From positions 1-56,456 of the forward strand of contig JALGSS010000001.1 in assembly GCA_029821745.1 (NCBI GenBank): a stretch of 56,456 nucleotides of DNA. Reading direction: 5' to 3'. The notes under the pieces were generated by a model. That model was not told where the DNA came from, did not search any database, and worked only from the letters and a program-made list of their open reading frames with translations. Position numbers and translations under genes: made by a program. Source of the DNA: Candidatus Zipacnadia bacterium. GTDB lineage: Bacteria; Armatimonadota; Zipacnadia; Zipacnadales; JABUFB01. This document shows positions 1-30,190 of the stretch, piece by piece. The number at the start of each line of letters is the position of its first letter. Within the stretch, counting starts at the first letter, position 1.

Positions 1-130
1 TCGCCTGTTTTATCCCTGCCGGTGGCGCCAAAGCGACAAATCCCCGTGCCGTGGCACGGTCGTTCCGTTGTCCACGCCGTGATCGGCCGTGTCCCGGTAC
101 ACTTTCGGGAGAAGGGCCTTTTTTGTCTGA

Positions 131-217
131 GCCCCGTCGGGGCGTCTGGAGATAGCCACGGGCGCGAGCCCGTGGGAACCGGGGCGTTCCGACTCCCCCG
201 TGGAGCCCCGGCGGGGC
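131..217. repeat. Cluster of GC-rich stem-loops (GCCCCGTCGGGGC; CCACGGG-CGCGAG-CCCGTGG; GCCCCGGCGGGGC), REP-like intergenic repeat
   Basis: Three perfect short inverted repeats read directly at 131-143, 156-175 and 205-217. Confidence 0.5.
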
Positions 218-13958: not shown

Positions 13959-14272
13959 ATGTGGGTGGAAGACCCGGACGTGAACCGCGAACGCCCAGCC
14001 GAGGTCTGCCAGCGCTACGACGTGGCTCGGCTGGAGGTCTTCGGCAGCCTCGCCCGTGGGGATGCCGATGCAGGCAGCGACCTCGGCATCCTGGTGACCT
14101 TCAAGCCCGGTGCCTTGGTAGGCCTGGACTTCATCTCCTTTGGCCGCAGTTGGATGCCCTGTTCGGCCGTCCCGTGGACCTGCTCATGCGCCGCGCCGTT
14201 GAGCGCTCCCCGAACAAGTACTTCCGCCGCTTCGCCCTCAGACGGACGGAACCGATCTATGAGCGAGCTTGA
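13959..14272 (+). pseudogene. MNT-type nucleotidyltransferase, frameshifted
   Basis: CQRYDVARLEVFGSLARGDADAGSDLGILVTFKPG... then in the 13961 frame QLDALFGRPVDLLMRRAVERSPNKYFRR. Confidence 0.7.
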
Positions 14273-14427
14273 GCCACGCCAGCGCGAGCCGGTCACCCGC
14301 GATTGGACGAGGCGCCCAATCCAGGCCAAGAAGCCCTTGTCATGGCAGCAGTGCGGTGGTCGTCCATGGGCGCATTCTCTGCCACAACCGTATGTCCGTC
14401 ACTGCTCGGGTCATAGAGCGCACGATC

Positions 14428-15420
14428 ATGGGCCAATCTGAATCGGCAGCGCGCGATGAGCTTCTTTCTCTGCTTAGGGAGAAGCGTGCCGTTCTGATGG
14501 TTGGCGCCGGCAGCAGCCGGTTTGTCGGTTACCCCTCTTGGGACGAGCTGGTCTCTAAGCTAAACGAGCTTGCACCCGGCTTGCGGAGGTCACCCAACAC
14601 CGATAGGGCTGCTTTCGTCGAGGACATCAAACAACAACTGAGGCGCGAGCGGCGCCTCGATGATTACTACAACCTGTTAGAGCGGACGTTCTCTCCACGC
14701 GATTCGGCTCCAACCCACGCGCCACTTCACTGCGCACTCGTGCAACTCGGCTTCGCCGGCATCGTGACCACCAACTACGACCCCGTGCTGGAATGGGCGA
14801 TAGGTGAAGCCTTCTCCCGCGACGTCCACCACGTCTGCCGACCCATTGACCTGTGCCAGAAGAGATGTTACCGGGTCTTTGATTTCCTTCGCTCCCTGTC
14901 ACGAGGGTCTCGCCATGATTTCGTGTTGCACCTGCACGGGTGGCACGAGAACCCCACAAACATCATTCTCACGCGGGACGACTACCAGATAAGGTACGGG
15001 GAACGACGACCCGCTACCTCTTCAGAACCAGTCCCCCGCATTCTCGACACAATCCACCGAAAGGTCATCTGGTCCCTGATGGCGATGCATTCAGTCGTGT
15101 TCGTGGGTTTCAGTATGGATGATGATTTCTTCATGGACATGGTCGACATCGTGCAGCAGGACTTTCGGCTCGGTTCCGATCCAGTGCATTTCGCCATCAT
15201 TGGCTATACGACTGATGAGGAGAAGGGCAAGATGGCGCACCATTTGAGGCGCCGGGGGATCGCGCCCGTCTTCTACCAGATGCTGGACCTCGCGGATGAT
15301 GGACCCTCGTCCCGTCACCGCCTCTTCGAAGACCTGATCCTCAATCTGGCGCGTTCGTTAGACGTGACTGTCCCACTGGGTGGACTGGATGCAGCGACGC
15401 GAAAGATGTTGGAGCGCTAG
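14428..15420 (+). CDS. SIR2-like domain protein
   Basis: VLMVGAGSSRF, IVTTNYDPVLEWA, VLHLHGWHENP, VVFVGFSMDDDFF motifs. Confidence 0.85.
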   Translation: MGQSESAARDELLSLLREKRAVLMVGAGSSRFVGYPSWDELVSKLNELAPGLRRSPNTDRAAFVEDIKQQLRRERRLDDYYNLLERTFSPRDSAPTHAPLHCALVQLGFAGIVTTNYDPVLEWAIGEAFSRDVHHVCRPIDLCQKRCYRVFDFLRSLSRGSRHDFVLHLHGWHENPTNIILTRDDYQIRYGERRPATSSEPVPRILDTIHRKVIWSLMAMHSVVFVGFSMDDDFFMDMVDIVQQDFRLGSDPVHFAIIGYTTDEEKGKMAHHLRRRGIAPVFYQMLDLADDGPSSRHRLFEDLILNLARSLDVTVPLGGLDAATRKMLER

Positions 15421-15424
15421 AGAA

Positions 15425-18400
15425 ATGGAAGTACCGCGCGACGCTCTGCTGTCCGCTCTACGGCGTTTCTGCTTCGATGGCAGTGGTGTCGTGGTCGGAG
15501 CCCCCGGCATCGGCAAGACCGTTGCCCTGAAGCGATTGCACGCGTTCCTTGAGTCGCAGCGCATCCCGCTGCTCTACTTACCCATCGACAAACTGGCAGT
15601 ACAAACGCAACACGATCTCGTTGCGGAGCTCGGGCTCACGGGGGATCTCCTTGACCACCTTCGTGCGGTGGTCGCCGATCGTGGAGATCAGTGTGGGGTC
15701 CTGATCGTTGATGCGTTCGACGCGGCACGCTCCGAGGAGAAGCGGCAGTTCTTCCTCAGTCTAATCAGGCGGGTCTTGAATCAGATGGGCGACACCTGGC
15801 ATGTGCTTGCCAGTGTCAGGACGTTTGACGCCCGAAAGTCCGAGGACTTGACGGACCTGTTCCCTCCGTCCACGCTGAACGCGGCGCCGGAGCCGTTCCA
15901 TTCTGCGGCGTTCGTGTGCCGCCATTTCGTTATCCCGCCCTTCACCGACGAGGAGGTCCGCAGTGTCGCCGAATCCGTCCCGGGGTTGCTGGGCGTCTAC
16001 GAAGGTGCGACGCCCGAATTCCGCGAACTCCTGCACGTTCCGTTCAACCTTTGGCTCTTGCGGAAGCTCCTGGATCGGACCCCGAATCTCCCGGAACTTA
16101 CGTCGGTGACCTCAGAGGTAGAACTGCTTAGCCTGTTCTGGAAGCAGCGGGTAACAGACGGGCCTCTGGGCGAAGCGAGGCGCGCGGTGCTTTCTGACGT
16201 CTGCCACGCGATGGTCCAAGCGCGCGGACTCTCCGTGCGTAAGGACCGGGCCTATGATCCAGTTACTGATGACGCGTGGCGAGATCTTCTGAGCGCCGAG
16301 GTGCTTGAGGAGGTGGGCACCTCGCAACAACGCGTTAGTTTCTCGCACAACATACTCTTCGACTACGCCGTGAGCGTCCTCCTGATTGAAGACGAACCAG
16401 AAAGGGTGGTTGAATTCGTCGGTGAAGACCCTTCGCGTCCTCTCTTCCTGCGTCCAAGTCTCGACTACTACTTCACGCGCCAGTGGCATGAATCGCCGGC
16501 CACGTTCTGGCGAGGCTTCTGGTACCTTCTGGCCCAGGAAGACATCAATATCCGCCTTGTGGGACGGCTCCTGCCACCGACGGTGGCGGTCCGCGAATCG
16601 AGGCAAGTCGATGATCTCTCGCCACTCCTTGATGCCCTCAGACAGGGCTGGCCAGGGGGCGCCAAAGGGGTGTTGCGCGTCTTACAGGCTCTTCGGGCAC
16701 TCGACGTGAAGAGGGACGCCCTTTGGTGCCGGTTCCTTGAGAGCATCACGCCGCACGTGGAGCCAGATTGGGCGTGGGACTTGGCCGTAATAGCGTCTGA
16801 AATCCTCGACCGGGCTGAGTCGGCAGGGAACGATCAGACGATCGGAGCGTGCGGCAATGTTGGGCGCCTGCTCCTCGGGTGGGTGTGGAGGCAACGGGAG
16901 CACGGCAGCGGGGAGTCTCTGGACCGGCTCGGCGCCTTTTGGGCCGTTCCGCTGGTAGCACGGACCTTTTGCTCCGATACCCAGGAGTCACGACGGATTC
17001 TGGAGCCAATACTTTCTCTCCCGGAGCAGCCGGACTTCCCCATAAACTACCTGTATCGCATGGTCCACCACCTCGACAGCATCTGGCCATTTGACCCTGA
17101 GTTCGCTGCGGCGGTCTACGAGACGGTGTTCGCCCATGAGGAGGAGAGCCAGGAACCCACGCCAATGGGAGGCTACGTTCTCCCGATGTCGAGCAACCGG
17201 CGGCAAGATTACGAAATGTGCAAGTACATGCTTGTCGAGCATTTTCCTGCCTTTGTGCGCGCTGCTCCAGCGCCAGCAACGAAGGCCTGCATTCGCTCGT
17301 TGAATGAGTACGTCATTAGGCGTCACGTGCAACCGTATCTGAGGCCTGGCGTGTCGCTGGAAGATCTTCCAGAGCGCTTCCCCTTCCGTGGCGGAGAGGC
17401 GGTCTACTTCCCAGATCTCAGTTACATATGGGATGAAAGCGAGCATCCTGACGAACCAGTCAAGCTTGCAGATCACCTGTTCATATACGTGGCCGAGGTC
17501 GCGTCGCGGAGCGACGGCCTGGCCACACTCGGCCAACTCCTGGATATCTTCCGTGATGAGGTCAGGGCAGCCGTCTTCTGGCGTAGACTGCTGCGGATAG
17601 GGGCCCGAAACCCCTTCGTCTTTGCTTCCCTGGTCTCGGAGCTGTGCGTCGCTCGTCCTGTGCTCAGGGGACCTGAATGTCGGTACGAACTCGGACTGTT
17701 CCTCGAGGCGGCGGCGTCCGAGTTCTCGAATGAGCTCTTAGGGGCGATAGAGACAATGATTCTCGCTCTGCCGCCGTCAGAGGAATCGCTGGAAGCGCGG
17801 CAATATGCCTCCCAACTCCAGGACCGCTTGTTGGCGAGGCTACCTCAAGATCGTCTCCAGACGGAGGAAGCACGAGCGCGTCGCCGAGAGATGCAGAAAA
17901 CACGATCAGCGCCTCCCAATGAACCTCCTGTGAGCACCAGATTCACCTGGGAGCCTTTTTCCGAAGAGGACTGGTTCGCAGAGCAGGGAGTGGATGTGAC
18001 GCGCGAGCCGAATCAGCGGCTCATGGCTTTCTTTGGAAAGCTGGACTCATTCATCGATTCGTGGCTGAATGAACAGCCCGACCCAGGGGCACTGGACGCC
18101 ATTCTCCCGGTGATCTCTGACGCGCATGAAGCCTGTACAGCCGAGAACGATGCCGATCTCCCTATCTCCACGGCGGCGTGGACGAAGACAGCCCAGTGCG
18201 CGGAGATAGTGGCGCGAGCACGTATGCGCGACAGTCCGGACAGCCCAGATTTCTTCCTTTGTCGGGAGATCCTGCTTCGGTGCGCAAATCACGGATCGCC
18301 CGAACCGGACCCCGAGCGCGATGCGCACTATGACCTTCCGTCATGGTCTCCGGCGCCCCGCAACGAGGCCGCTCAAGGCCTGTTCTGGCTGGTCGTCCGC

Positions 18401-19474
18401 AGGGCGGACAAGGAGCTCCTGGCCGCCATAGAGAAGCTGGCCAACGATCCTGTGCCTTCTGTGCGCTTCCTCTCCACCCGGAATCTCTGGTGTCTCAGGC
18501 CGTGCGCAACTGAGTTGATGTGGCGGGTGGTGGACCATCTTGCGCGGAACGAGGCAAACCACACTATCCTTCATGCTCTCTGTCGGACCCTTGGCCGTTT
18601 GGCCGCGGGGAACGAAGAAGCAGTCGTCAAGACGCTGAGGGTTCTCGCCGACCGCGCATTGGCTGGTCCGGGCGATTCGGCGTTTGTGGAAGCCTTTCTG
18701 GGCCTGCTCTTGTGGCTAGTGTTCGTTCGCGACAATGGCTGGGCGAAGCGCGCCGTAGCTGAGTTGCTGAGGCAGCCCACTGAACGAGCCGACGTCCTTT
18801 CGAGAGCAGCTTTCGAGGCATTGACGTATGTGACGCCGAGGAAGATGCTGGACTCGTCGAGCTCCACTGCTGCTGAGCGCGCGGTTGCTTGGCTGCGCGA
18901 AGCGATCGGTGCCGCTGTGGGCGGGATCGCTGAGATTCGCAGGATCCCTGAATCGGAATGGTCTGACCTGAATAGAGCCCAACTGAAGGGAACTTACAGT
19001 GTCCTCGATCATGTTGTGATGCGGCTGTTCTTCTCCTCGGGTCTTGGCCCGACACAGCGCGCGGACACGGAACGCGTATCAGACAAAGAACGGAGGGCCT
19101 TCTACTTCGCCGTCAAGCCACTGCTTGAGCAGATTCTGAGTTTCACCCTGGATGAGCAGAGCGGAGTGCTCTTCGCCCCCACAGCCCACCATTTCATGGA
19201 GTTGTTGAACGGTGTCCTCAGATACGACCCGAGAGGTGTCCTGCACATGGCGGCCGGCGTCGCCAAGTCGAGCAGCCGCTACGGATACAACCTTGACTCA
19301 TTGGCTATCCGGGAGACTGTGAAGCTCACCGAGGCTGTCCTGGCCGACTACCGGCACGAGGTCCGCGAGGGTGAGCCCCTGAGAGACCTGCTGACGCTGT
19401 TGGACGTGTTCGCCGAGGCCGGATGGCCGGACGCGCTGCGTCTCATCTGGCGTCTCGATGAGGTCTACAGATAG
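15425..19474 (+). CDS. Large P-loop ATPase (STAND-like) with long helical-repeat C-terminus, paired with SIR2
   Basis: Walker A GAPGIGKTVAL, Walker B CGVLIVDAFDAA, winged-helix-like FSHNILFDYAVSVLLI; starts 4 nt after the SIR2 stop. Confidence 0.75.
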   Translation: MEVPRDALLSALRRFCFDGSGVVVGAPGIGKTVALKRLHAFLESQRIPLLYLPIDKLAVQTQHDLVAELGLTGDLLDHLRAVVADRGDQCGVLIVDAFDAARSEEKRQFFLSLIRRVLNQMGDTWHVLASVRTFDARKSEDLTDLFPPSTLNAAPEPFHSAAFVCRHFVIPPFTDEEVRSVAESVPGLLGVYEGATPEFRELLHVPFNLWLLRKLLDRTPNLPELTSVTSEVELLSLFWKQRVTDGPLGEARRAVLSDVCHAMVQARGLSVRKDRAYDPVTDDAWRDLLSAEVLEEVGTSQQRVSFSHNILFDYAVSVLLIEDEPERVVEFVGEDPSRPLFLRPSLDYYFTRQWHESPATFWRGFWYLLAQEDINIRLVGRLLPPTVAVRESRQVDDLSPLLDALRQGWPGGAKGVLRVLQALRALDVKRDALWCRFLESITPHVEPDWAWDLAVIASEILDRAESAGNDQTIGACGNVGRLLLGWVWRQREHGSGESLDRLGAFWAVPLVARTFCSDTQESRRILEPILSLPEQPDFPINYLYRMVHHLDSIWPFDPEFAAAVYETVFAHEEESQEPTPMGGYVLPMSSNRRQDYEMCKYMLVEHFPAFVRAAPAPATKACIRSLNEYVIRRHVQPYLRPGVSLEDLPERFPFRGGEAVYFPDLSYIWDESEHPDEPVKLADHLFIYVAEVASRSDGLATLGQLLDIFRDEVRAAVFWRRLLRIGARNPFVFASLVSELCVARPVLRGPECRYELGLFLEAAASEFSNELLGAIETMILALPPSEESLEARQYASQLQDRLLARLPQDRLQTEEARARRREMQKTRSAPPNEPPVSTRFTWEPFSEEDWFAEQGVDVTREPNQRLMAFFGKLDSFIDSWLNEQPDPGALDAILPVISDAHEACTAENDADLPISTAAWTKTAQCAEIVARARMRDSPDSPDFFLCREILLRCANHGSPEPDPERDAHYDLPSWSPAPRNEAAQGLFWLVVRRADKELLAAIEKLANDPVPSVRFLSTRNLWCLRPCATELMWRVVDHLARNEANHTILHALCRTLGRLAAGNEEAVVKTLRVLADRALAGPGDSAFVEAFLGLLLWLVFVRDNGWAKRAVAELLRQPTERADVLSRAAFEALTYVTPRKMLDSSSSTAAERAVAWLREAIGAAVGGIAEIRRIPESEWSDLNRAQLKGTYSVLDHVVMRLFFSSGLGPTQRADTERVSDKERRAFYFAVKPLLEQILSFTLDEQSGVLFAPTAHHFMELLNGVLRYDPRGVLHMAAGVAKSSSRYGYNLDSLAIRETVKLTEAVLADYRHEVREGEPLRDLLTLLDVFAEAGWPDALRLIWRLDEVYR

Positions 19475-20055: not shown

Positions 20056-20580
20056 ATGGGTAAGCGCAAGATCGACATCCCGAGGGAACTGACGGCAATG
20101 AAGAACATGAGCGCCGGCGACCTCCGGGGCAAGTACGCCGAGTTGTACGGCGAGGCGTCGCGGAGCGGCAACCGACAGTGGCTGTTTCGCCGGTGCGCGT
20201 GGCGGCTGCAGTCGTTGGCTGAGGGCGGCCTGTCCGAGCGGGCCCGACGCCGGGCCAAGGAACTGGCCCGGGACGCCGACATCCGGGTGATCCCGCCAGC
20301 CGACCTGGTGAGGCCCGCACCCGACCGGCCTGGGCACCGGAGACAGCCGGCCCGGAAGTACCTCCGCGCCAACCATGATCCTCGGCTCCCGATGCCGGGG
20401 ACCCGCATCCCCCGCCCGTACAAGGGCCATACCTGCGTGGTCGAGGTCCTGTCCAACGGGTTCGCCTACGACGGCGAGTTCTACCGATCCCTGTCGGCCG
20501 TGGCCCACGCCATCACAGGCAGCCACTGGAACGGCTACTTGTTCTTTGGAATCCAGGACCCACGTAAGGGAGACGAATGA
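20056..20580 (+). CDS. DUF2924-like protein, recombinase-associated
   Basis: [56 protein letters not shown] overlap with the recombinase gene. Confidence 0.85.
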
Positions 20581-22154
20581 CTGCCGAAGCCAAGCGAGAG
20601 CGTGTGCGGTGCGCCATCTACACCCGGAAGAGCACCGACGAGAACCTCGGCCTGGACTTCAACTCCCTCGACGCGCAGAGGGAGGCGGCCGAGGCGCACA
20701 TCGCCAGCCAGCGCGGCGAAGGCTGACAGTGCCTGCCCGAGCGCTACGACGACGGCGGGTTCTCCGGCGGGAACACAGACCGGCCGGCCTTCCAGCGCCT
20801 GATGGCCGACGTGGAGCAGGGCCGGGTGGACTGCATGGTGGTCTACAAGATCGACCGGCTCTCCCGTAGTCTCATGGACTTCGCCAAGATCATGGAGGTG
20901 TTTGAGCAGCACGACGTCGCGCTGGTCAGCGTCACCCAGCAGTTCAACACCAGTACGTCAATGGGCCGGTTGACTCTGAACATCCTGCTTTCCTTCGCCC
21001 AATTCGAGCGTGAGATCATCTCCGAGCGGACCCGTGACAAGATGGCCGCTGCCCGCCGCAAGGGCAAGTGGACGGGTGGGCCGCCGGTCCTGGGATACGA
21101 TCTGGAGAGAGACCAACGTGGCAGCCGCCTCGTGGTCAACCCGGACGAGGCCGAGCGCGTCCGCGCCATCTTTCGGACGTACATCGAACAGGGCTCGACG
21201 CTGCCGACGCTCCAGGCCATTAGGGCGCAAGGCTGGCGGACGAAGCGGTTCCAAACGGTCAAGGGTGCCTGGCGCGGTGGGGCGGAATTCAGCAAGTCGG
21301 CCTTCAGGAAGATGCTCACGAACGTCATCTACCTCGGCAAGGTGTGCTACAAGGGCGAGGTGTTCGAGGGAGAGCACGAGGCCATCGTCGGCGAGGACTT
21401 GTTCGGCCGGGCTCAGGGGCTGATGCGGCGCAACCGCAATACCGGCGGAAAGCGCGTCCGCAACAAGCACGGTGCCCTGCTCAAGGGTCTCGTCACCTGC
21501 GGACACTCCGGCTGCCGGATGAGCCACCACTTCGCCTCGAAAGGCAACAGGCGATATCGCTACTACGTCTGCGCTCACGCCCAGAAGAACGGGTGGGACG
21601 CGTGCCCGTTCCCGTCGCTGCCGGCGGGGGAACTGGAGGCCTTCGTAATCGACCAGATCAGGGACGTGGGCAAGGACCCGGCGGCGCTTGCGGAGTGCCT
21701 CACGGCCACGCAGGCACACCTGGAGGCCGACATCGACGCGCTGGAGGGCCGGCGGGCCGAGGTCGAGATGCGCATTCGTTCATTGGGCCGGGAGGTGGGA
21801 GAGATCGCGCCGCGGGCAGGCTTCGATGAGTGGGCCAGCCGCCAGTGCGATCACCTTCAAGGCAAGATGCGGGACGAGCAGTTGGAGGTCAACCGGATCA
21901 ACGAGCGGATCGAAAAGGTCCGCCGCCGGATGCTCAACTCGGACGAGTTAGCCGGGGTCGTGGAGGCCTTCGACCCTCTGTGGGACTCCCTGTCGCCGAC
22001 GTACAAGGCCAGGCTGGTCCACCTGCTGGTGGGCCGCGTCAAGTATGACGGGGCGAATGAGACCCTCTCGATCACCTTCCACCCGACGGGCATCGGTGCC
22101 AGTGCCGAGGGCAGTCAAGGGGAGGAGGCGGAGACAGCATGCGCCAGAAGTTGA
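20577..22154 (+). pseudogene. Large serine recombinase with in-frame TGA
   Basis: [40 protein letters not shown][TGA 20724-20726]QCLPERYDDGGFSGG...YKIDRLSRSLMDF...SFAQFEREIISERTRDK; zinc-ribbon and coiled-coil regions intact. Confidence 0.85.
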
Positions 22155-22405
22155 CGGTAACGAAGAGAATTCACTTCTCGATGGCCGACAGCAGTCTCCG
22201 CCAGGCCGCCGTCGCCAACACGATGGAGAACTTCGGCTACGTCTTCCGCAAGGCGCTGGAGGGCCTGTTCATCGACCGCATGGACCAGAACGAGGAGATC
22301 ACCGCCACGTTCATGAACGAGGACCAGTTCCGTGAGCCGGTGAGCCAGCACCTGCTCAAGGACGTCTACGAGCAGATAAGGGCTCAAGAGGTGGCACAGC
22401 CGTGA
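22139..22405 (+). CDS. Small protein resembling the extreme C-terminus of an HsdR subunit, possibly a remnant
   Basis: MENFGYVFRKALEGLFIDRMDQNEEITATFMNEDQFREPVSQHLLKDVYEQI pattern. Confidence 0.45.
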   Translation: MRQKLTVTKRIHFSMADSSLRQAAVANTMENFGYVFRKALEGLFIDRMDQNEEITATFMNEDQFREPVSQHLLKDVYEQIRAQEVAQP

Positions 22406-22454: not shown

Positions 22455-23000
22455 CTACTCGTGGGGTGGCAGGAAGATGTGACGCCTGCTCAAGCGGAGA
22501 CCGCCACTGTCCCCAAGTAACCGCAGAAAGGTCTTGAATCTTCGCGCCGGGATGTCAAGGCCGTTCTCCCCACACATTTCGGCGTGTAGCTCCTCAGCGG
22601 TGGGCAGAACTACCTTACTCCGCCGCAGCATTTCAACCGACACAGCCGCGAGTCGCCCCACGGGACAGCCCAGTTGTTGCAGGCGTGAACGCAGTCTGCG
22701 GCGAAGCAATGAGTCGTAACGCGCAGGATCAGCAGCAGCCTTCCCGGCCCCTGTAAGAGCACCCGTCTCCCCGTTGATCAAGCCCAGTTCCGCCGCCAGC
22801 CGGAATGCTCTTCGTATAGCTCGCTCCGAGCATACGGGTACATCCTCCTCGCGTTCCGGATCCCATCGGTGATAGACGAAGTTAGGAGGACTCCTCCGCT
22901 TGATCCGACCAATCAAGTCCTCAGCGGATCGAGACTCCCTCTCCCCCGCCAAGTTCAACATCTCCTGGATACGAGAGTAGTAGGTCGTCTTGCCTGGCAC
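22455..23000 (-). CDS. Unassigned protein with winged-helix-like composition, last gene of the six-gene operon
   Basis: GTG start in VPGKTTYYSRIQEML...; CSERAIRRAFRLAAELGLINGETGALTGAGKAAA looks wHTH-like; 16 nt after the upstream gene. Confidence 0.6.
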   Translation of the reverse strand: MPGKTTYYSRIQEMLNLAGERESRSAEDLIGRIKRRSPPNFVYHRWDPEREEDVPVCSERAIRRAFRLAAELGLINGETGALTGAGKAAADPARYDSLLRRRLRSRLQQLGCPVGRLAAVSVEMLRRSKVVLPTAEELHAEMCGENGLDIPARRFKTFLRLLGDSGGLRLSRRHIFLPPHE

Positions 23001-23016
23001 GCGTGCACCTCCCTCA

Positions 23017-24225
23017 TCAGGTTTCTCGGAAGCCCGCGGCACGCCGCCGATACCTATCGTGGTACGCAGTCTGCCCTGGCAGTCCGTCGAAGACGGAGAG
23101 AATCGCTTTGCGCAGCCCAGCCCAGTCGAATTCGCCTGCACGCGCCTTCTCGTACCGTGGCAGCGTAACGGGGAACTTGGCCTCAAGACGCTCGATGGCG
23201 CTCCTGGCCTCGCTTTCCTCCGTTCGCAGGCGCTCATTTACTTTCCGCCGTTCGTCCGCCTCTTCCGGCACGTCGCGCGGACGGCGCGCGTTCCGGAGCG
23301 CCTTCAGATACGCCCCCAGATCTGTCAAATCGTCCGCGTACTTCCGCCACGCCGTGACACTGGCGTCCCAGATCGCGTCAGGACCCTCGAAACTCTCGAT
23401 CACAATCCGTGCAGCACTATTGCCTCCAGCGGCGAGGTGTTCAATCTTGCCCAACCCAGTCGTGTAGGCAGATCTGTTCCTTTCGGCCTTCTTCTTGACC
23501 TCCTCTATGGCCTGCCTCAGCGAGGGGAACTCAGAGCCGCCAGGGCGCCTCCCCGTCCTCTTGCGCCTCGGTGTTCGCCCCTCCAGTTCGTCGATCTCCT
23601 TCATGAAGCGCCAAAAGACATGAATGAAGACATTGTATTCGATAGCTTCGACGGTCCCCGAGTGGTTCTGATGCGTACCAAGCGCCACCACTTCTCGCTG
23701 GGTGAGATTCGAGACGCACGCACAAAGCGCTTTGACGTGCGCATGATCGCTCGCCTGAAACGCCGATGGAACAGCATCCGACAGGTGGACCGGAAGGTAT
23801 GTTCTCTCCCTGCCCGCACGTACGCTGTATTGCCTCTTGCCAGCGTAGTGACGCCGAGCGAGGTCGAAAAGAAAGACGTCAGGATTGTCCTTGAGCGCGT
23901 CTTGAATGTGCCAAATGGCGTCGAGGGCAAAGATATGCCTGTCGCGCCGCTCACGCGTCGGAATCGCGCAGCCAGGCCCATGCACACCCATCGCAGTTTG
24001 GTACAGGGACGGCACCGACACAAGGCGTTTGCGGGCGAGCGTCATCCAGATGACATTCACGAGATGCGCAAGTTTGTCGAAAGCGATGCCGGGCCAAGGT
24101 CCTGACCTGCGACCCGGCCGCGTATTCTTTGTTTGCCACGCCTCGAAAACCGTCAGCCAGAGTGCATGCGCGCACCAGAGCGCCCTCCCGTTGGAGCGTC
24201 GTCGCGGGATTATGGGGCTAGGCAT
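23017..24225 (-). CDS. Unassigned 402-aa protein, fifth gene of the operon
   Basis: Open frame overlapping the upstream gene by 8 nt; no family recognised. Confidence 0.7.
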   Translation of the reverse strand: MPSPIIPRRRSNGRALWCAHALWLTVFEAWQTKNTRPGRRSGPWPGIAFDKLAHLVNVIWMTLARKRLVSVPSLYQTAMGVHGPGCAIPTRERRDRHIFALDAIWHIQDALKDNPDVFLFDLARRHYAGKRQYSVRAGRERTYLPVHLSDAVPSAFQASDHAHVKALCACVSNLTQREVVALGTHQNHSGTVEAIEYNVFIHVFWRFMKEIDELEGRTPRRKRTGRRPGGSEFPSLRQAIEEVKKKAERNRSAYTTGLGKIEHLAAGGNSAARIVIESFEGPDAIWDASVTAWRKYADDLTDLGAYLKALRNARRPRDVPEEADERRKVNERLRTEESEARSAIERLEAKFPVTLPRYEKARAGEFDWAGLRKAILSVFDGLPGQTAYHDRYRRRAAGFRET

Positions 24226-25771
24226 TGAACACAACCTCTTCGGCCCCGAACGCCATATGTTCGAGGGCTTCTTCCGCGAACTCACTGTCGGGCTGATACG
24301 CGCGCACAATGAAGCGGCGGCCATTGCGCGCTAGAATTACCTGTGTGGTCTTCAGTACAGCACTATCGATTGCCGTATCCATAATGATGGAACGTACGGG
24401 TTCCGCGATCTGGAGCTCCGCGCCGACTTGCCAGTATTCATCCCAGGTGAACGGGGCGATTCGAGACCTATATCGCTCCGGCTCATCGTCGTCAAACCAG
24501 TCGTCGCCTACACTGAAACGCCAACGCCTGCGAACAATCTCCACCAACAGCTCTCTGGCCTTAGCGACGCGCGTGTCGGCACCAACGACCTCCGCAGTGT
24601 CCGTCATCACTGCTTGGCCCCGAGCCGCCTTAGCCGTCTGACGGGCTAGGCGTGCCGACAACGCTCGGTCATGGTGTGCCGAAACCGCTCCGGCCATGAG
24701 AGCCTCTAGCTCGCCGAAGTCGAGGAGCGGGTAGAGGGCGCGCAGGTGACCGAGTGGCGAGTCGCGTCCAACGGAACCGTGAAGCAAATCAGGGGCGAGG
24801 CCCTTACCGATGAGCGGGGCCAAGCTCGCCCAGACGCCGCGCAGGAGCTCTATTCCCGCAATCAGACTGGAAAGGTGGAAGGCGAGCTCGACTCGTTTTT
24901 TGGGCGGGCACGTGGCGAGCGCCGGGGCCGCGAAGGCAGGACAACCTTCCCATCCTTCCGCCGCGATGTCTGCGTCTGCTGGCACTGAAGGATACCAAAT
25001 GGCGATAAAGGCAAACTGGCTGGGTCCGCGCCTTACCAGTCTGACTTTCCGTGGACCGGTTCCGTCGAGGTCCGCTCCCGGCGGCAGTGAAGCACGCACT
25101 CTGGCGAGATCCGGAACAACGGGGTTGCGAATCGTGATACCCGGGAACCCCCGTGACACATCGTCCTCGTACTCCACCGGAGCTCCAAGCCGCCTCAACC
25201 CCTCAAGAAACCGGCGGACCGGCATCGTCAAGCGGAACGTGCTCTCGGGATGCTCCGTGTCGAGCAGGAGCGCTCCTTTGCTGCGAAGGCTTTGAATCAG
25301 TCGCTCGCGGATGACCCCATAGAGTGCGGCCGACACATCTCGCTTGACCGCGTGGTCAGGGGACTGCGCGGCAGGATCATCTCTGAAGTCCTGCGTGCGC
25401 CAACAGCCACGCCGTGCGAATTCCTCGTGGACGGCGTACGCCGCGGTCTCGATTCCCTTCTCCTCGCCTCGCGTGTTTTCCCTTATTGCCGCCAACGCAT
25501 CCTTCGTGCTCTGACCTCGATGGATCATCTCGTTAAACACAAGGATTCGTTGCCCGGACAGATGTCTCTCAGCAAGATACGGGATCGCTTCGGACGAGAG
25601 GACCCTTCCCCAATCCCACTCACAAGATCTCTCCGGCAGCAAGTCCAACAGGGCTCGAAGGATTGCAGTCGCCTTCCTCTCGACCGTGACTATAACGTCA
25701 AACCTCTCGCGGTCCAGGAGCGCTGCCAGCCACGAGAAAAGACTGTCTTCCTCAAGAGACAAGGAGTTCAT
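24218..25771 (-). CDS. 517-aa protein with phosphoribosyltransferase-like N-terminus
   Basis: FDVIVTVERKATAILRALLDLL ... GQRILVFNEMIHRGQSTKDALAAI resembles a degenerate PRPP loop; start overlaps the SIR2 stop (TAATG). Confidence 0.65.
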   Translation of the reverse strand: MNSLSLEEDSLFSWLAALLDRERFDVIVTVERKATAILRALLDLLPERSCEWDWGRVLSSEAIPYLAERHLSGQRILVFNEMIHRGQSTKDALAAIRENTRGEEKGIETAAYAVHEEFARRGCWRTQDFRDDPAAQSPDHAVKRDVSAALYGVIRERLIQSLRSKGALLLDTEHPESTFRLTMPVRRFLEGLRRLGAPVEYEDDVSRGFPGITIRNPVVPDLARVRASLPPGADLDGTGPRKVRLVRRGPSQFAFIAIWYPSVPADADIAAEGWEGCPAFAAPALATCPPKKRVELAFHLSSLIAGIELLRGVWASLAPLIGKGLAPDLLHGSVGRDSPLGHLRALYPLLDFGELEALMAGAVSAHHDRALSARLARQTAKAARGQAVMTDTAEVVGADTRVAKARELLVEIVRRRWRFSVGDDWFDDDEPERYRSRIAPFTWDEYWQVGAELQIAEPVRSIIMDTAIDSAVLKTTQVILARNGRRFIVRAYQPDSEFAEEALEHMAFGAEEVVFNA

Positions 25772-26847
25772 TACTGCGTGTCCTCGAAGGGTGTGAGCGC
25801 GTAGTGCAAGTAGAGGAGCAAATCATCCGCGCAAATGACCCCGAAGGGGTCAGTTGCGGTTTCAAGCATGCTTTGAAGCGTTCTCTCGTCCTTGCCCAAA
25901 GCAGAGGCAACTTGACGCCCCATGCGTGCTAGTACGACGTTGTCAACCGTGTCAAAGAGAGTGGAGAAGAAATCGCCTGCCCCAGCGGCGATATGCTCGA
26001 TGTGGCGTTGCTCCCAGATGTCACGAGCAATCGTCCATTCGCTTCGGGCATTACGCGGGCCACCCTCGGCTGGCGAAACCGCAAACGTTCGCTTCTTCAA
26101 GCCGCTCCGCGTTTTCGCGATCCGTTGTATGTCGAAAAACACTCGTCGCAGATCGGTGTCCCGCATCGAATAGCCGACGAGAACGAAGATATCGGTTGCC
26201 AGCGCAGCGCGCAGAAGGTCGTAGATCGGACCTTCGAGTGTCGCCTGGACCTGCTCCCCGGCGACAATGGAATCTGAATACTCGACGCAACCGTGCAAGT
26301 GACAGACAACGACTTGCCTCTTCTCCCTCGCGTCAGGCAGATCGCTTATGTTGGCGGACGTAAGGCAGCGGGCCAGCGGGTTAGCTGGGTCGCGGTCTCG
26401 GTTAAACGCCTTCTCTATGAGGCTGTCGAAGTTCGTCGTGAAGAGGGTCCTTGGGAATTGGTGCGGCTGAAGATCGTAGAGCTCGCGGAGTTTGAGATGA
26501 GCGCCCGCGGGCTGGGCGTTCTCGAGCGGGGCTTTCGCGAGCAGCCACCGAGAAAGGTCGTGGTACTGCAACCTGCTTGCTAACAGCTGCAGGATGGCTT
26601 CGAACGGATATGAAGCCGCGAGCGCGTCAAGGGCACAGTGATCTACGTTGTCCTCCTGATCCTCTCCAAGCACCGCGCGGCGCATCATGCGCCGGGCCAA
26701 TGCGTCACCAGCAGGCACGGTGCTCTCGGTCGACATGCCAGCACCGATCAGCAGGCCGAGTTGAGCGCGAGTGAGACTGGCAGCGATGGCCCGGTATGCC
26801 TCGTCATAGTAGTTGGCGTCCGGAGCCTGAGACGCGTCCACATTCAT
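25771..26847 (-). CDS. SIR2-like domain protein (second in window)
   Basis: LGLLIGAGMSTES, TLFTTNFDSLIEKAF, VVVCHLHGCVEYS, IFVLVGYSMRDTDLRRVF. Confidence 0.85.
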   Translation of the reverse strand: MNVDASQAPDANYYDEAYRAIAASLTRAQLGLLIGAGMSTESTVPAGDALARRMMRRAVLGEDQEDNVDHCALDALAASYPFEAILQLLASRLQYHDLSRWLLAKAPLENAQPAGAHLKLRELYDLQPHQFPRTLFTTNFDSLIEKAFNRDRDPANPLARCLTSANISDLPDAREKRQVVVCHLHGCVEYSDSIVAGEQVQATLEGPIYDLLRAALATDIFVLVGYSMRDTDLRRVFFDIQRIAKTRSGLKKRTFAVSPAEGGPRNARSEWTIARDIWEQRHIEHIAAGAGDFFSTLFDTVDNVVLARMGRQVASALGKDERTLQSMLETATDPFGVICADDLLLYLHYALTPFEDTQ

Positions 26848-26896
26848 TGTCTAACCCCCGAACAGTGGGCACCGCGACGGCAGACGCTGGGCGCCG

Positions 26897-27577
26897 TTAG
26901 GGCACATATGGGAGGCCACGAGCAGCGTGCCAGGAGGCGGGAGAAGACAAGTACTCCTGGACGGAGTTCATAGCTCCCGCTGCAAGAGTGCCAGAGAGCT
27001 TTGCCTCGGCCAGCGCAACGTCCATGTCCGTTGTTGAGTGCAGCCGTACGCCCACGTCGGCAAGTGCTTGCCTTCCTCCCTGCAGGCGGTCAAAGGCAAC
27101 CAGAACGTTTTCCACCTGGCCACCGGCATCTTCAATGGCGTGGACAAACGCAAGCTTACTACCGGCATCTGTAATGAGATCCTCGACAAGGAGGACGGAG
27201 GCGTCGTGCGGCAACACGCCCTCGATGATGGACCTGGTTCCGTGTTCCTTACTCCTCTTACGGACATAGATCATAGGGGCCCCAAACGCGCGGGCAAGGA
27301 ACGCAGCGAACGGGATGCCTGCGGTCTCGCCACCGGCAAGGAGGTCGAATTCGATGTGGTGGCGGTCGCAGATGAGTCTAGCGCCGGCCACAAACAGATC
27401 AACGAACGCGGGCGACGAAATTAGCTGGCGACAATTGATGTAGATTGGGCTGTAGTTGCCGGACACGAGCCTAAATGGCTCTGGCACATTCACCTTGATG
27501 GCGCCGACGCGCCACAGTTCCAACGCGATGAGCCTTCGCATCAGCGCGAGCATGTGGTCGCTTGTGGAAGCGGTCAT
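26897..27577 (-). CDS. pyrE: Orotate phosphoribosyltransferase
   Basis: SGNYSPIYINCRQLISSP, LAGGETAGIPFAAFLA, MIYVRKRSKEHGTRSIIEG, VLLVEDLITDAGSK. Confidence 0.88.
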   Translation of the reverse strand: MTASTSDHMLALMRRLIALELWRVGAIKVNVPEPFRLVSGNYSPIYINCRQLISSPAFVDLFVAGARLICDRHHIEFDLLAGGETAGIPFAAFLARAFGAPMIYVRKRSKEHGTRSIIEGVLPHDASVLLVEDLITDAGSKLAFVHAIEDAGGQVENVLVAFDRLQGGRQALADVGVRLHSTTDMDVALAEAKLSGTLAAGAMNSVQEYLSSPASWHAARGLPYVP

Positions 27578-28293
27578 GCTTTGATCTCCTCGGCGAACGC
27601 TACAAGCGCTGCCTGCGGGTCAGATGCCCGGTAGACAGCGGAGCCAATAATCGCGAACCGCCGGTGGGGCGCAGCAGCCGCAAAGGCCGCCGAGATCGCG
27701 CCTCCCTGCGATCCGATTCCTGGCATCATGATCGCAGCTGAAGGGCACGACGCCAATGGTGCACTTGCGAAGCGGCGGATGATGTCCGGTTTGGTGCCAG
27801 GAAGGACGAATGTCGTGACACCGAGGTCTAGGGCCGCTTGGCAAATGAGATCGGGCGCATCATCCACGATGTAGCCACCCTCTGAGCGGAGATACGCCCG
27901 GTGGGTCATTACTAGCCCAACGATCGGAATGACCTCGTGGTCCAGCGCCGCAGAGACGAAGCCTTTTAGAGTCTCAGGTCCTGCCTGTGGGAAAAGAATC
28001 ACGCCGCACACGCTGGCGCTCCGGCAGATCGCAGCAAAGCGCTCGCCCATCTGCGGAATGTCCGTACCGGCCTTCTGGTGGTCGTAGATCACCGGAAGGT
28101 CAGATACGTTACGGACCGCGCGAACAACCGGACCCAGTCCATGATGCAGGGCCAGCGAGAATCCCACCTTTACTCCCACGACTTCCGGTACGTGAGAGGC
28201 CGCCCGGAGCAGCGCACTCAGTTCGGACAAACTGGTCACGTCAGCGGCAAGGATGATGCCACGATCATGAGTTGACGCAAACGTCGGTGGCAT
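27574..28293 (-). CDS. pyrF: Orotidine 5'-phosphate decarboxylase / HUMPS family protein
   Basis: GIILAADV..., VVGVKVGFSLAL, LPVIYDHQKAGTDIPQMGERFA, MPGIGSQGG, FAIIGSAVYRASDP; ATGA overlap with pyrE. Confidence 0.82.
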   Translation of the reverse strand: MPPTFASTHDRGIILAADVTSLSELSALLRAASHVPEVVGVKVGFSLALHHGLGPVVRAVRNVSDLPVIYDHQKAGTDIPQMGERFAAICRSASVCGVILFPQAGPETLKGFVSAALDHEVIPIVGLVMTHRAYLRSEGGYIVDDAPDLICQAALDLGVTTFVLPGTKPDIIRRFASAPLASCPSAAIMMPGIGSQGGAISAAFAAAAPHRRFAIIGSAVYRASDPQAALVAFAEEIKA

Positions 28294-28734
28294 AGCGGTA
28301 CCCACACACAGCCCGGTCCTTTCCGGCCAATCGCCCGTCCGTGGGAACACCAGCTTCACCTGCCGGAGAGAGGGTGTTGCGCGCGTCCTTGATCGCACCA
28401 ACCCGTGATGATACCAACGCGGGCGATGTCAAGCAAATTCCCGCCCCAAGGCCGCCACAGGCAGCGCGTTGGCGAGGCGCAAGAGGGCCGGGACAAGAGC
28501 AAGTGTGGACGAGAGCCGTTCTACATGTTGTGCTGAGCGGGACGCGCAAGTCGATATGCAGGATTGGTTCAATTCTATCAGAGATGGCGGCCGGACAGGA
28601 TCACCAATCGGCGTCGTGCGTGGTGGCGCGTACACACGCCAGCCAACGGGCGCAGGAACCGAGCCGGGGCTACGGCCGGGAGGTCCCCCTGCCTGCGCCA
28701 GGTTGGGCTACATCTGGCGGATGTGCCGATCCCG

Positions 28735-28945
28735 GCCAACAGGTTCGGGTCAACGCGCGGAGACGACGCGCCACCGAGACGATCACCCGCACGCGGCGGG
28801 GAGCACCGTCTACGACCACCTGCGCCGGCGCGACGACAACCCGTGCGTGGTGATCCCCACAGCCGGCGGAAAGACGGCGGTAATGGGGCGGATGTGGCGC
28901 TCGCGGATCGGGGGACGGCGACCGTCACGTCTTCACCGGCGCTAG
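28735..28945 (+). pseudogene. Fragment of a DEAD/DEAH-type helicase N-terminus
   Basis: STVYDHLRRRDDNPCVVIPTAGGKTAVMGRM (motif I), truncated both sides. Confidence 0.5.
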
Positions 28946-29358: not shown

Positions 29359-30190
29359 CTACTGCACCTGCCCGCGGCGCAACGAAGCCACGGCCTCGTC
29401 GATCTCGCGGCCCTTGGCCTCGATCAAGTCGAGGAGTTCCTCCGGCGTGCGCGTGTCCTCCTCGGCGACGGCATTGGGGTTGACGGCCTTCAAGTCGTAA
29501 ACGGCGTTGTCGATGGCCTCGGCGCGTCGAAGGAGGTCACGGGCCTCCTTTCGGATGTCCTTGATCCGGCCGTTGACCTCGTCGATCTTGGCCTGGTCGC
29601 GCGGTTTGGCCTTCTTCAGTTTGGCCAGTTCTTCCTTCCAGCGCGCCGCTTCCTGCTCCTTGGCGTTGGCCTCGCGCTTGATCGGCGCCGATTCCTCGGC
29701 CGCCCGGCGCTTCCGTTCGGCGATGTCCACCGTCCACGACCGGTCGCTGTCGGCCCGGTCGGGCAGCAGTCGGAAGAACTCGTCGAACCGGTCGATGGTG
29801 AAGGGCTGGCGCTTGCCGACCTTCACGTCGGAGAGGTCGTAGTGCCAGATCCGCTCCGTCGGCCCGCCTTCCTGAAGAAGACGAGGTTGGTCTTGACGCC
29901 CGCCCCGGCGCTCACGAACACGCCGCCCGGCAGGCTCACGATGCAGAACACGTCGCAGTCGTCGAGGAATTTGCGCTTGGTCTGGACGAACGCCTTCTCG
30001 TTGATCCTGAACAGTGCGCCTTCGTCCATGACGATGCCGCACCGCCCGCTGGGGTTTAGGGCGTCGATTACATGCTGGCGGAAGAGCATCTGCGTCGCCC
30101 CGGTCTTGAAGGCGAACCGCGACCGGGCCTCCTTCCCCTCCTTGCCACCGAAGGGCGGATTGGTGAGGACCACGTCGAAGAGCGCCGGCG
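29359..30190 (-). pseudogene. hsdM: HsdM C-terminal half remnant (different subfamily from 12652), frameshifted
   Basis: FDVVLTNPPFGGKEGKEARSRFAFKTGATQMLFRQHVIDALNPSGRCGIVMDEGALF... | frameshift near 29870 | GPTERIWHYDLSDVKVGKRQPFTIDRFDEFFRLLPDRADSDRSWTVDI... Confidence 0.8.

Follow-up and report, generated by a model that had tools for sequence, protein, structure and literature searches.

We analyzed a stretch of 56,456 nucleotides from contig JALGSS010000001.1 of a Candidatus Zipacnadia bacterium (the window), in which six genes are packed on the minus strand at 22455-28293. An earlier note had taken them for an operon of an undescribed defence or signalling system, and the six open reading frames are all present where it had placed them. 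From the upstream end, they encode PyrF, a predicted orotidine 5′-phosphate decarboxylase (OMPDC) of archaeal type (239 aa; 27574..28293), PyrE, a predicted orotate phosphoribosyltransferase (226 aa; 26897..27577), a SIR2_2-type protein that is a probable NADase effector (358 aa; 25771..26847), a 517-aa protein with a phosphoribosyltransferase (PRTase)-like N-terminal domain, a middle region and a possible C-terminal winged helix-turn-helix (wHTH) (24218..25771), a 402-aa helical partner protein without a family (23017..24225), and a 181-aa wHTH-like protein (22455..23000). The junctions are also as the note had described them, with overlaps of 4 nt between PyrF and PyrE (ATGA), 1 nt between the SIR2 and 517-aa genes (TAATG) and 8 nt between the 517- and 402-aa genes, and gaps of 49 nt after PyrE, the largest, and 16 nt between the 402- and 181-aa genes. 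The GC content at third codon positions is 65-70% in all six genes, below the 79-86% of the nearby RecD-like helicase, type IIG restriction-modification enzyme and recombinase, so the six look co-acquired.

PyrF matches PF00215 (OMPdecase) with 48.3 bits against a Pfam cut-off of 27. In an alignment of 76 relatives, 46 positions are at least 93% conserved, and the window protein keeps all the charged and catalytic-loop positions among them, including D18, K42, D71-H72-Q73-K74, T77-D78 and Q196-G-G. It deviates only at T32, Y41, G127 and Y151, none of which is a charged residue. PyrF is therefore predicted to be an OMP decarboxylase with its conserved catalytic residues intact. PyrE exceeds the Pfam cut-off for PF00156 (Pribosyltran) with 33 bits. 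It scores 183 bits with NF001729 (equivalog cut-off 245) and 103.4 with TIGR00336 (cut-off 106.8), a cut-off exceeded by the PyrE of the two other loci described below (L017, 132.9; G281, 110.2). The RK..K.HG catalytic loop and the EDLITDAGSK loop for phosphoribosyl pyrophosphate (PRPP) are present and 17 of 18 conserved positions are kept, with the conserved catalytic residues intact.

The SIR2 protein was expected to be of the NADase-effector kind, and its sequence agrees. It scores 74.7 bits with PF13289 (SIR2_2), over the Pfam cut-off, its best PADLOC model is ThsA (2.6e-11), and scores with CobB families are only marginal. The SIR2_2 domain carries the N, D and H motifs (GAGMS, TTNFD, HLHG and GYS are all present), and the protein retains the N and H of PDB chain 9v0g, both of which are substituted in chain 9v12. 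With domain and motifs intact, it is probably an NADase effector.

Recurrence was examined mainly through PyrF. The PyrF of another genome of the same phylum (G281; 47% identity) gave an alignment, with which 85,462 species genomes were scanned; among the best 80 of 269 relatives was a contig of a Nitrospinota metagenome-assembled genome (L017). This contig carries PyrF, PyrE, SIR2 and 487-, 408- and 174-aa proteins in the gene order of the window, with identities of 51% for PyrF, 47% for PyrE and 27-29% for SIR2. The flanks of the two loci are unrelated, except for one 52-aa match of a window helicase. The earlier note would have taken the grouping as accidental if pyrF and pyrE were the sole copies in the genome and the SIR2, 517- and 402-aa genes did not accompany them elsewhere; in L017 all three do, and so does the 181-aa gene. 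Because the order is conserved in another phylum between unrelated flanks, the six genes are a real unit, and the conserved multi-gene system that had been suspected does exist. The recurrence scans rested on PyrF or short exact peptides. Beyond these, tblastn of plasmids with the 517-aa, 402-aa, SIR2 and PyrF proteins gave nothing close, viral contigs searched with the 517- and 402-aa proteins and the 517-family alignment gave none, and a 517-family profile run over 291 + 198 + 376 genomes returned known loci only. Its remaining weak matches appear to be ordinary PRTases: the one that was inspected is PurF, and the others were judged by size and match region only.

A variant lies in G281 (L015/L025), which belongs to the same order as the window genome. 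Here overlapping PyrF and PyrE genes are followed by genes for a 572-aa nitrilase-like protein, which matches defence RT-nitrilase (RT, reverse transcriptase) models at E 1e-8, a 339-aa PRTase-like protein and a 571-aa protein. Either SIR2 or nitrilase thus occupies the slot that separates PyrE from the PRTase-like gene, so the effector appears to be exchangeable around a common core. The variant operon is directly downstream of a Lamassu-like LmuA/LmuB pair, and near it are a 626-aa PRTase-like fusion, terminase/portal genes and a tyrosine recombinase gene; the phage genes and the recombinase were identified by eye. The 626-aa protein (L015 15727-17607, minus strand, upstream of LmuA/LmuB) has an OloB-like N-terminus, an HTH-like middle and a PRTase-like C-terminus that is homologous to the 339-aa protein (25%, E 2e-23); the PRTase module may have found a second use here.

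The 517-, 402- and 181-aa proteins have no family match in Pfam, PADLOC, NCBIfam or PHROGs, and their relationships were traced through the two other loci. The 517-aa protein is 27% identical to the 487-aa protein of L017 (E 1e-40), which in turn aligns at E 5e-10 to the 339-aa protein of G281, and the latter passes the Pribosyltran cut-off. Through these homologues, rather than by the window sequence alone, the proposed second PRTase-fold-like protein is borne out, and the 517 family is PRTase-like at its N-terminus. The window protein did not pass the PRPP-motif test, however, as it reads VFNEMIHRG (NE..RG, not DD..TG) against VFDDMLHTG in L017 and VLDDAIATG in G281. It has probably lost PRPP chemistry and, because the motif acids are lost, would more probably act as a regulator or sensor than as an enzyme. 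Membership in PRTase-CE (PF24390) was rejected for this family, as the window protein has no match, the L017 protein reaches E 0.13, and hhalign against three genuine members gave 0.3% probability. A wHTH common to the 517-aa C-terminus and the 571- and 626-aa proteins of G281 is suggestive only, with z of 3.4 and 4.3 in two of four pairs and an hhalign E of 0.014.

The 402-aa protein is 22% identical to its L017 homologue (E 1.7e-5; alignment z 13.6). Its AlphaFold model is all-helical and of low confidence (mean pLDDT 46), and Foldseek gave no significant match for the 517-aa model, whose mean pLDDT is 50. The 181-aa protein is 30% identical to the L017 174-aa protein (E 1.6e-24), which has weak matches to wHTH-PRTase_assc (E 0.048) and to the wHTH end of PADLOC PRTase_III-A (E 0.0058).

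In a PyrF tree of 92 rows, the window protein forms a clade (support 100/99) with those of L017, a Nitrospirota contig (L016) and a Deltaproteobacteria contig (L018), placed among archaeal copies. The Nitrospirota member (L016 3828-4556, plus strand; 52% to the window) has no other system genes beside it, and its genome has another PF00215 gene; the Deltaproteobacteria contig stops after pyrF. In genomes G291 and G293, another PF00215 match is present besides the clade copy. Because the archaeal-type OMPDC adjoins a PyrE homologue in many archaeal loci, the system has probably recruited an entire UMP-synthase pair of archaeal type. This subtype is the sole PF00215 match in G296 and G298, and thus probably serves there as the housekeeping OMPDC. 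An Aerophobetes contig (L028) has the archaeal-type pyrF-pyrE pair without other system genes. Archaeal-type PyrF homologues were also seen on putative viral contigs (L096-L106), ten of them in one clade; these would be viruses carrying pyrimidine synthesis genes.

The accessory status of the operon PyrF and PyrE was established for G281 (93% complete), which has a separate canonical pyrF beside pyrB and a canonical pyrE. It was half established for the window genome (assembly 88% complete), where a second, canonical pyrE is present. A second PF00215 match in this genome, at first read as a housekeeping PyrF, is an HPS-RraA fusion.

No named system of this composition was known to the earlier note, and we found none either. 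In PADLOC, no named system model covers the gene set and only generic SIR2 matches occur, and in the open-licence literature no defence system combining pyrE, pyrF, orotate PRTase or orotidine was found; one S. thermophilus paper with orotidine and SIR2 describes an island position only. The operon resembles SIR2-effector systems (Thoeris ThsA, PDC-M54A and similar) in its SIR2_2/ThsA-like domain, catalytic N and H and defence-island setting, whereas its 358-aa SIR2 is stand-alone, without a SLOG, AAA or Ago partner, and is accompanied by UMP-synthase genes and by three orphan proteins. Type III retrons have PRTase and wHTH effectors (PMC12548924). The operon may likewise pair a PRTase-like protein with a wHTH companion (the matches of the L017 174-aa homologue being weak), but there is no RT in the operon or the scanned flanking proteins, no retron RNA in the Rfam scan, and no retron or PRTase-CE match of the 517-aa family above cut-off. 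PRTase proteins probably act as effectors in retrons and alongside DprA (PMC9122126); ShosTA and PsyrTA share with the operon a PRTase-domain protein in a defence-type operon, but none of the six genes has a DprA-like antitoxin domain. Archaeal housekeeping pyrF-pyrE pairs (Methanophagales, Thermoplasmata, DPANN) have the same OMPDC subtype (YDHQK motif) and pairing, often with short overlaps, but no SIR2, 517-, 402- or 181-aa genes were seen at the loci checked. Finally, the nitrilase-like protein in the SIR2 slot of G281 recalls nitrilase effectors (UG5 RT-nitrilase, CARF-nitrilase), but this variant lacks RT and CARF and is coupled to PyrF-PyrE and a PRTase-like protein.

Our best reading is that the operon is a rare, mobile, putative abortive-infection unit with a UMP-synthase/PRTase core and an exchangeable effector. 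Defence is suggested by the order conserved in two phyla, the SIR2/nitrilase slot, the position of the window and G281 loci among defence and mobile genes, the low common third-position GC, the intact SIR2 N and H, the kept PyrF and PyrE sites, the accessory status in G281 and the nesting of PyrF among archaeal copies. That the six genes are a mobile anti-phage system acting by abortive infection with a SIR2 NADase is a tentative assignment, drawn from context and SIR2 type alone and falling slightly short of an even chance.

In such a system, the PRTase-like, helical and wHTH proteins would form a complex that keeps the SIR2 NADase inactive. The complex would sense infection, and the resulting loss of NAD+ would lead to abortive infection. 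With less confidence, the PyrE-PyrF pair would be catalytic and would couple this switch to nucleotide supply by converting orotate and PRPP irreversibly to UMP. PRPP is the co-substrate of Nampt, and phages overcome defence by NAD+ depletion through resynthesis of NAD+ (PMC12774641). The pair could drain PRPP, so that Nampt-type salvage of the host or phage would be unable to rebuild NAD+ after SIR2 action. Or it could maintain a metabolite (PRPP, OMP or UMP) at a level sensed by the PRTase-like protein. We favour PRPP drainage plus regulation by the PRTase-like complex, although a coupling of PyrE-PyrF to NAD+ defence via PRPP is in itself unlikely. It is possible, if doubtful, that the operon represents a new immunity class, in which an archaeal-type UMP-synthase pair, possibly recruited repeatedly, is the metabolic core, the NADase or nitrilase is swappable, and PRPP/pyrimidine metabolism is the trigger or the weapon.

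Several observations weigh against the reading as an abortive-infection unit. Complete six-gene loci were found only twice, and a variant once. In L017 the SIR2 frame is broken by a frameshift, and the surroundings of the locus contain housekeeping genes (DEAD-box helicase, mraZ/mraW) and a PIN gene, with no clear defence island. The PyrF of G281 groups with L020, L031 and L028 instead of forming the sister of the window clade; its UMP-synthase core may therefore have been recruited separately from that of the window. A kinship of the 402-aa protein with the G281 571-aa protein was rejected, as there is no homology. A second PyrF was not found in the 88%-complete window assembly, nor any PyrF or PyrE besides the operon copies in the 1.8-Mb Nitrospinota assembly. 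UMP synthesis would feed the phage as well. Lactococcus lowers pyr expression upon infection, which was read as starving the phage and is the opposite direction (PMC10986495).

The exchangeable effector would also fit a signalling scheme of the kind known from CBASS or Thoeris: starting from an unusual base or an orotate analogue, PyrE, PyrF and the PRTase-like protein would together produce a modified nucleotide, and this would switch on the SIR2 or the nitrilase. The effector slot varies while the PyrF-PyrE-PRTase core is constant, and the PRTase-like proteins of L017 and G281 retain DD..TG. However, that of the window does not, PyrF and PyrE retain the conserved residues of their ordinary relatives, and no added ligand-sensing domain was found by Pfam in the 358-aa SIR2. 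We consider this scheme rather improbable.

PyrE and PyrF could instead be decoys or protective enzymes, such that a phage-induced collapse of pyrimidines or PRPP frees the SIR2 toxin. The strongly altered pyr expression in infected Lactococcus (PMC10986495) and the extra pyrF and pyrE in G281 and extra pyrE in the window genome are consistent with a guard of this kind, but the active sites are intact and strongly conserved, which speaks for catalysis rather than a mere decoy role and makes the guard quite unlikely.

A further rival, to be taken seriously although of little probability, is that the SIR2 protein is a deacylase tuning PyrE, with the operon as an accessory UMP-synthesis unit or as cargo making the island indispensable. 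The E. coli sirtuin CobB restores orotate phosphoribosyltransferase activity by deacetylating K26 and K103 (PMC10087573). The window PyrE has the lysine of the KxxxH-type loop, and the lack of second copies in the Nitrospinota assembly and, for PyrF only, in the window assembly would fit as well. The E. coli K26 position is presumably V in the window PyrE (aligned by eye), which counts against such tuning, as do the ThsA/SIR2_2-like character of the SIR2 protein with its marginal CobB-family scores, the nitrilase in its slot in G281 and the defence context. An accidental landing of a pyrF-pyrE pair beside an unrelated SIR2 operon is very improbable, although the pair occurs alone in places such as L028, since all six genes follow one another in the same order in another phylum, with identities of 22-51%, and the nitrilase variant is likewise arranged as PyrF-PyrE-X-PRTase.

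As for the putative abortive-infection unit, de novo pyrimidine enzymes are absent from every described defence system found. Their coupling, if true, would tie NAD+ destruction to PRPP/UMP flux, and one could then test whether bacterial immunity includes a block on NAD+ rebuilding or a readout of nucleotide metabolism. Three new protein families (517, 402 and 181 aa) are defined through the conserved synteny.

The surroundings of the operon form the defence-rich island that the earlier note had recognized, with a PDC-M54A-like pair, a type IIG restriction enzyme, a Snf2/DISARM-like helicase, a recombinase, integrases and tRNA-Asn. A serine recombinase gene adjoins the operon (20802..22154, plus strand; Resolvase 2.5e-25, Recombinase 1.3e-12) and is paired with a DUF2924 gene (20056-20580; DUF2924 8e-40). 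Fragments flank the operon at 22139-22405 (+), 28469-28945 (+) and 29823-30173 (-); one is an N6 DNA methylase piece (Pfam E 2.5e-18), while HsdR-like and helicase-like pieces were named by eye only, and together they are possibly a decayed restriction system. Shortly downstream of tRNA-Asn, at 14269-19474 (+), a gene for a 383-aa SIR2 protein precedes one for a 1364-aa AAA/NACHT-like protein, which matches the PADLOC candidate PDC-M54A (E 6.9e-224) starting at profile position 309. This pair appears to be a candidate PDC-M54A-like system divided over two genes. At 130-175 (-), the window has an Acido-Lenti-1 RNA match in Rfam of 39.8 bits.

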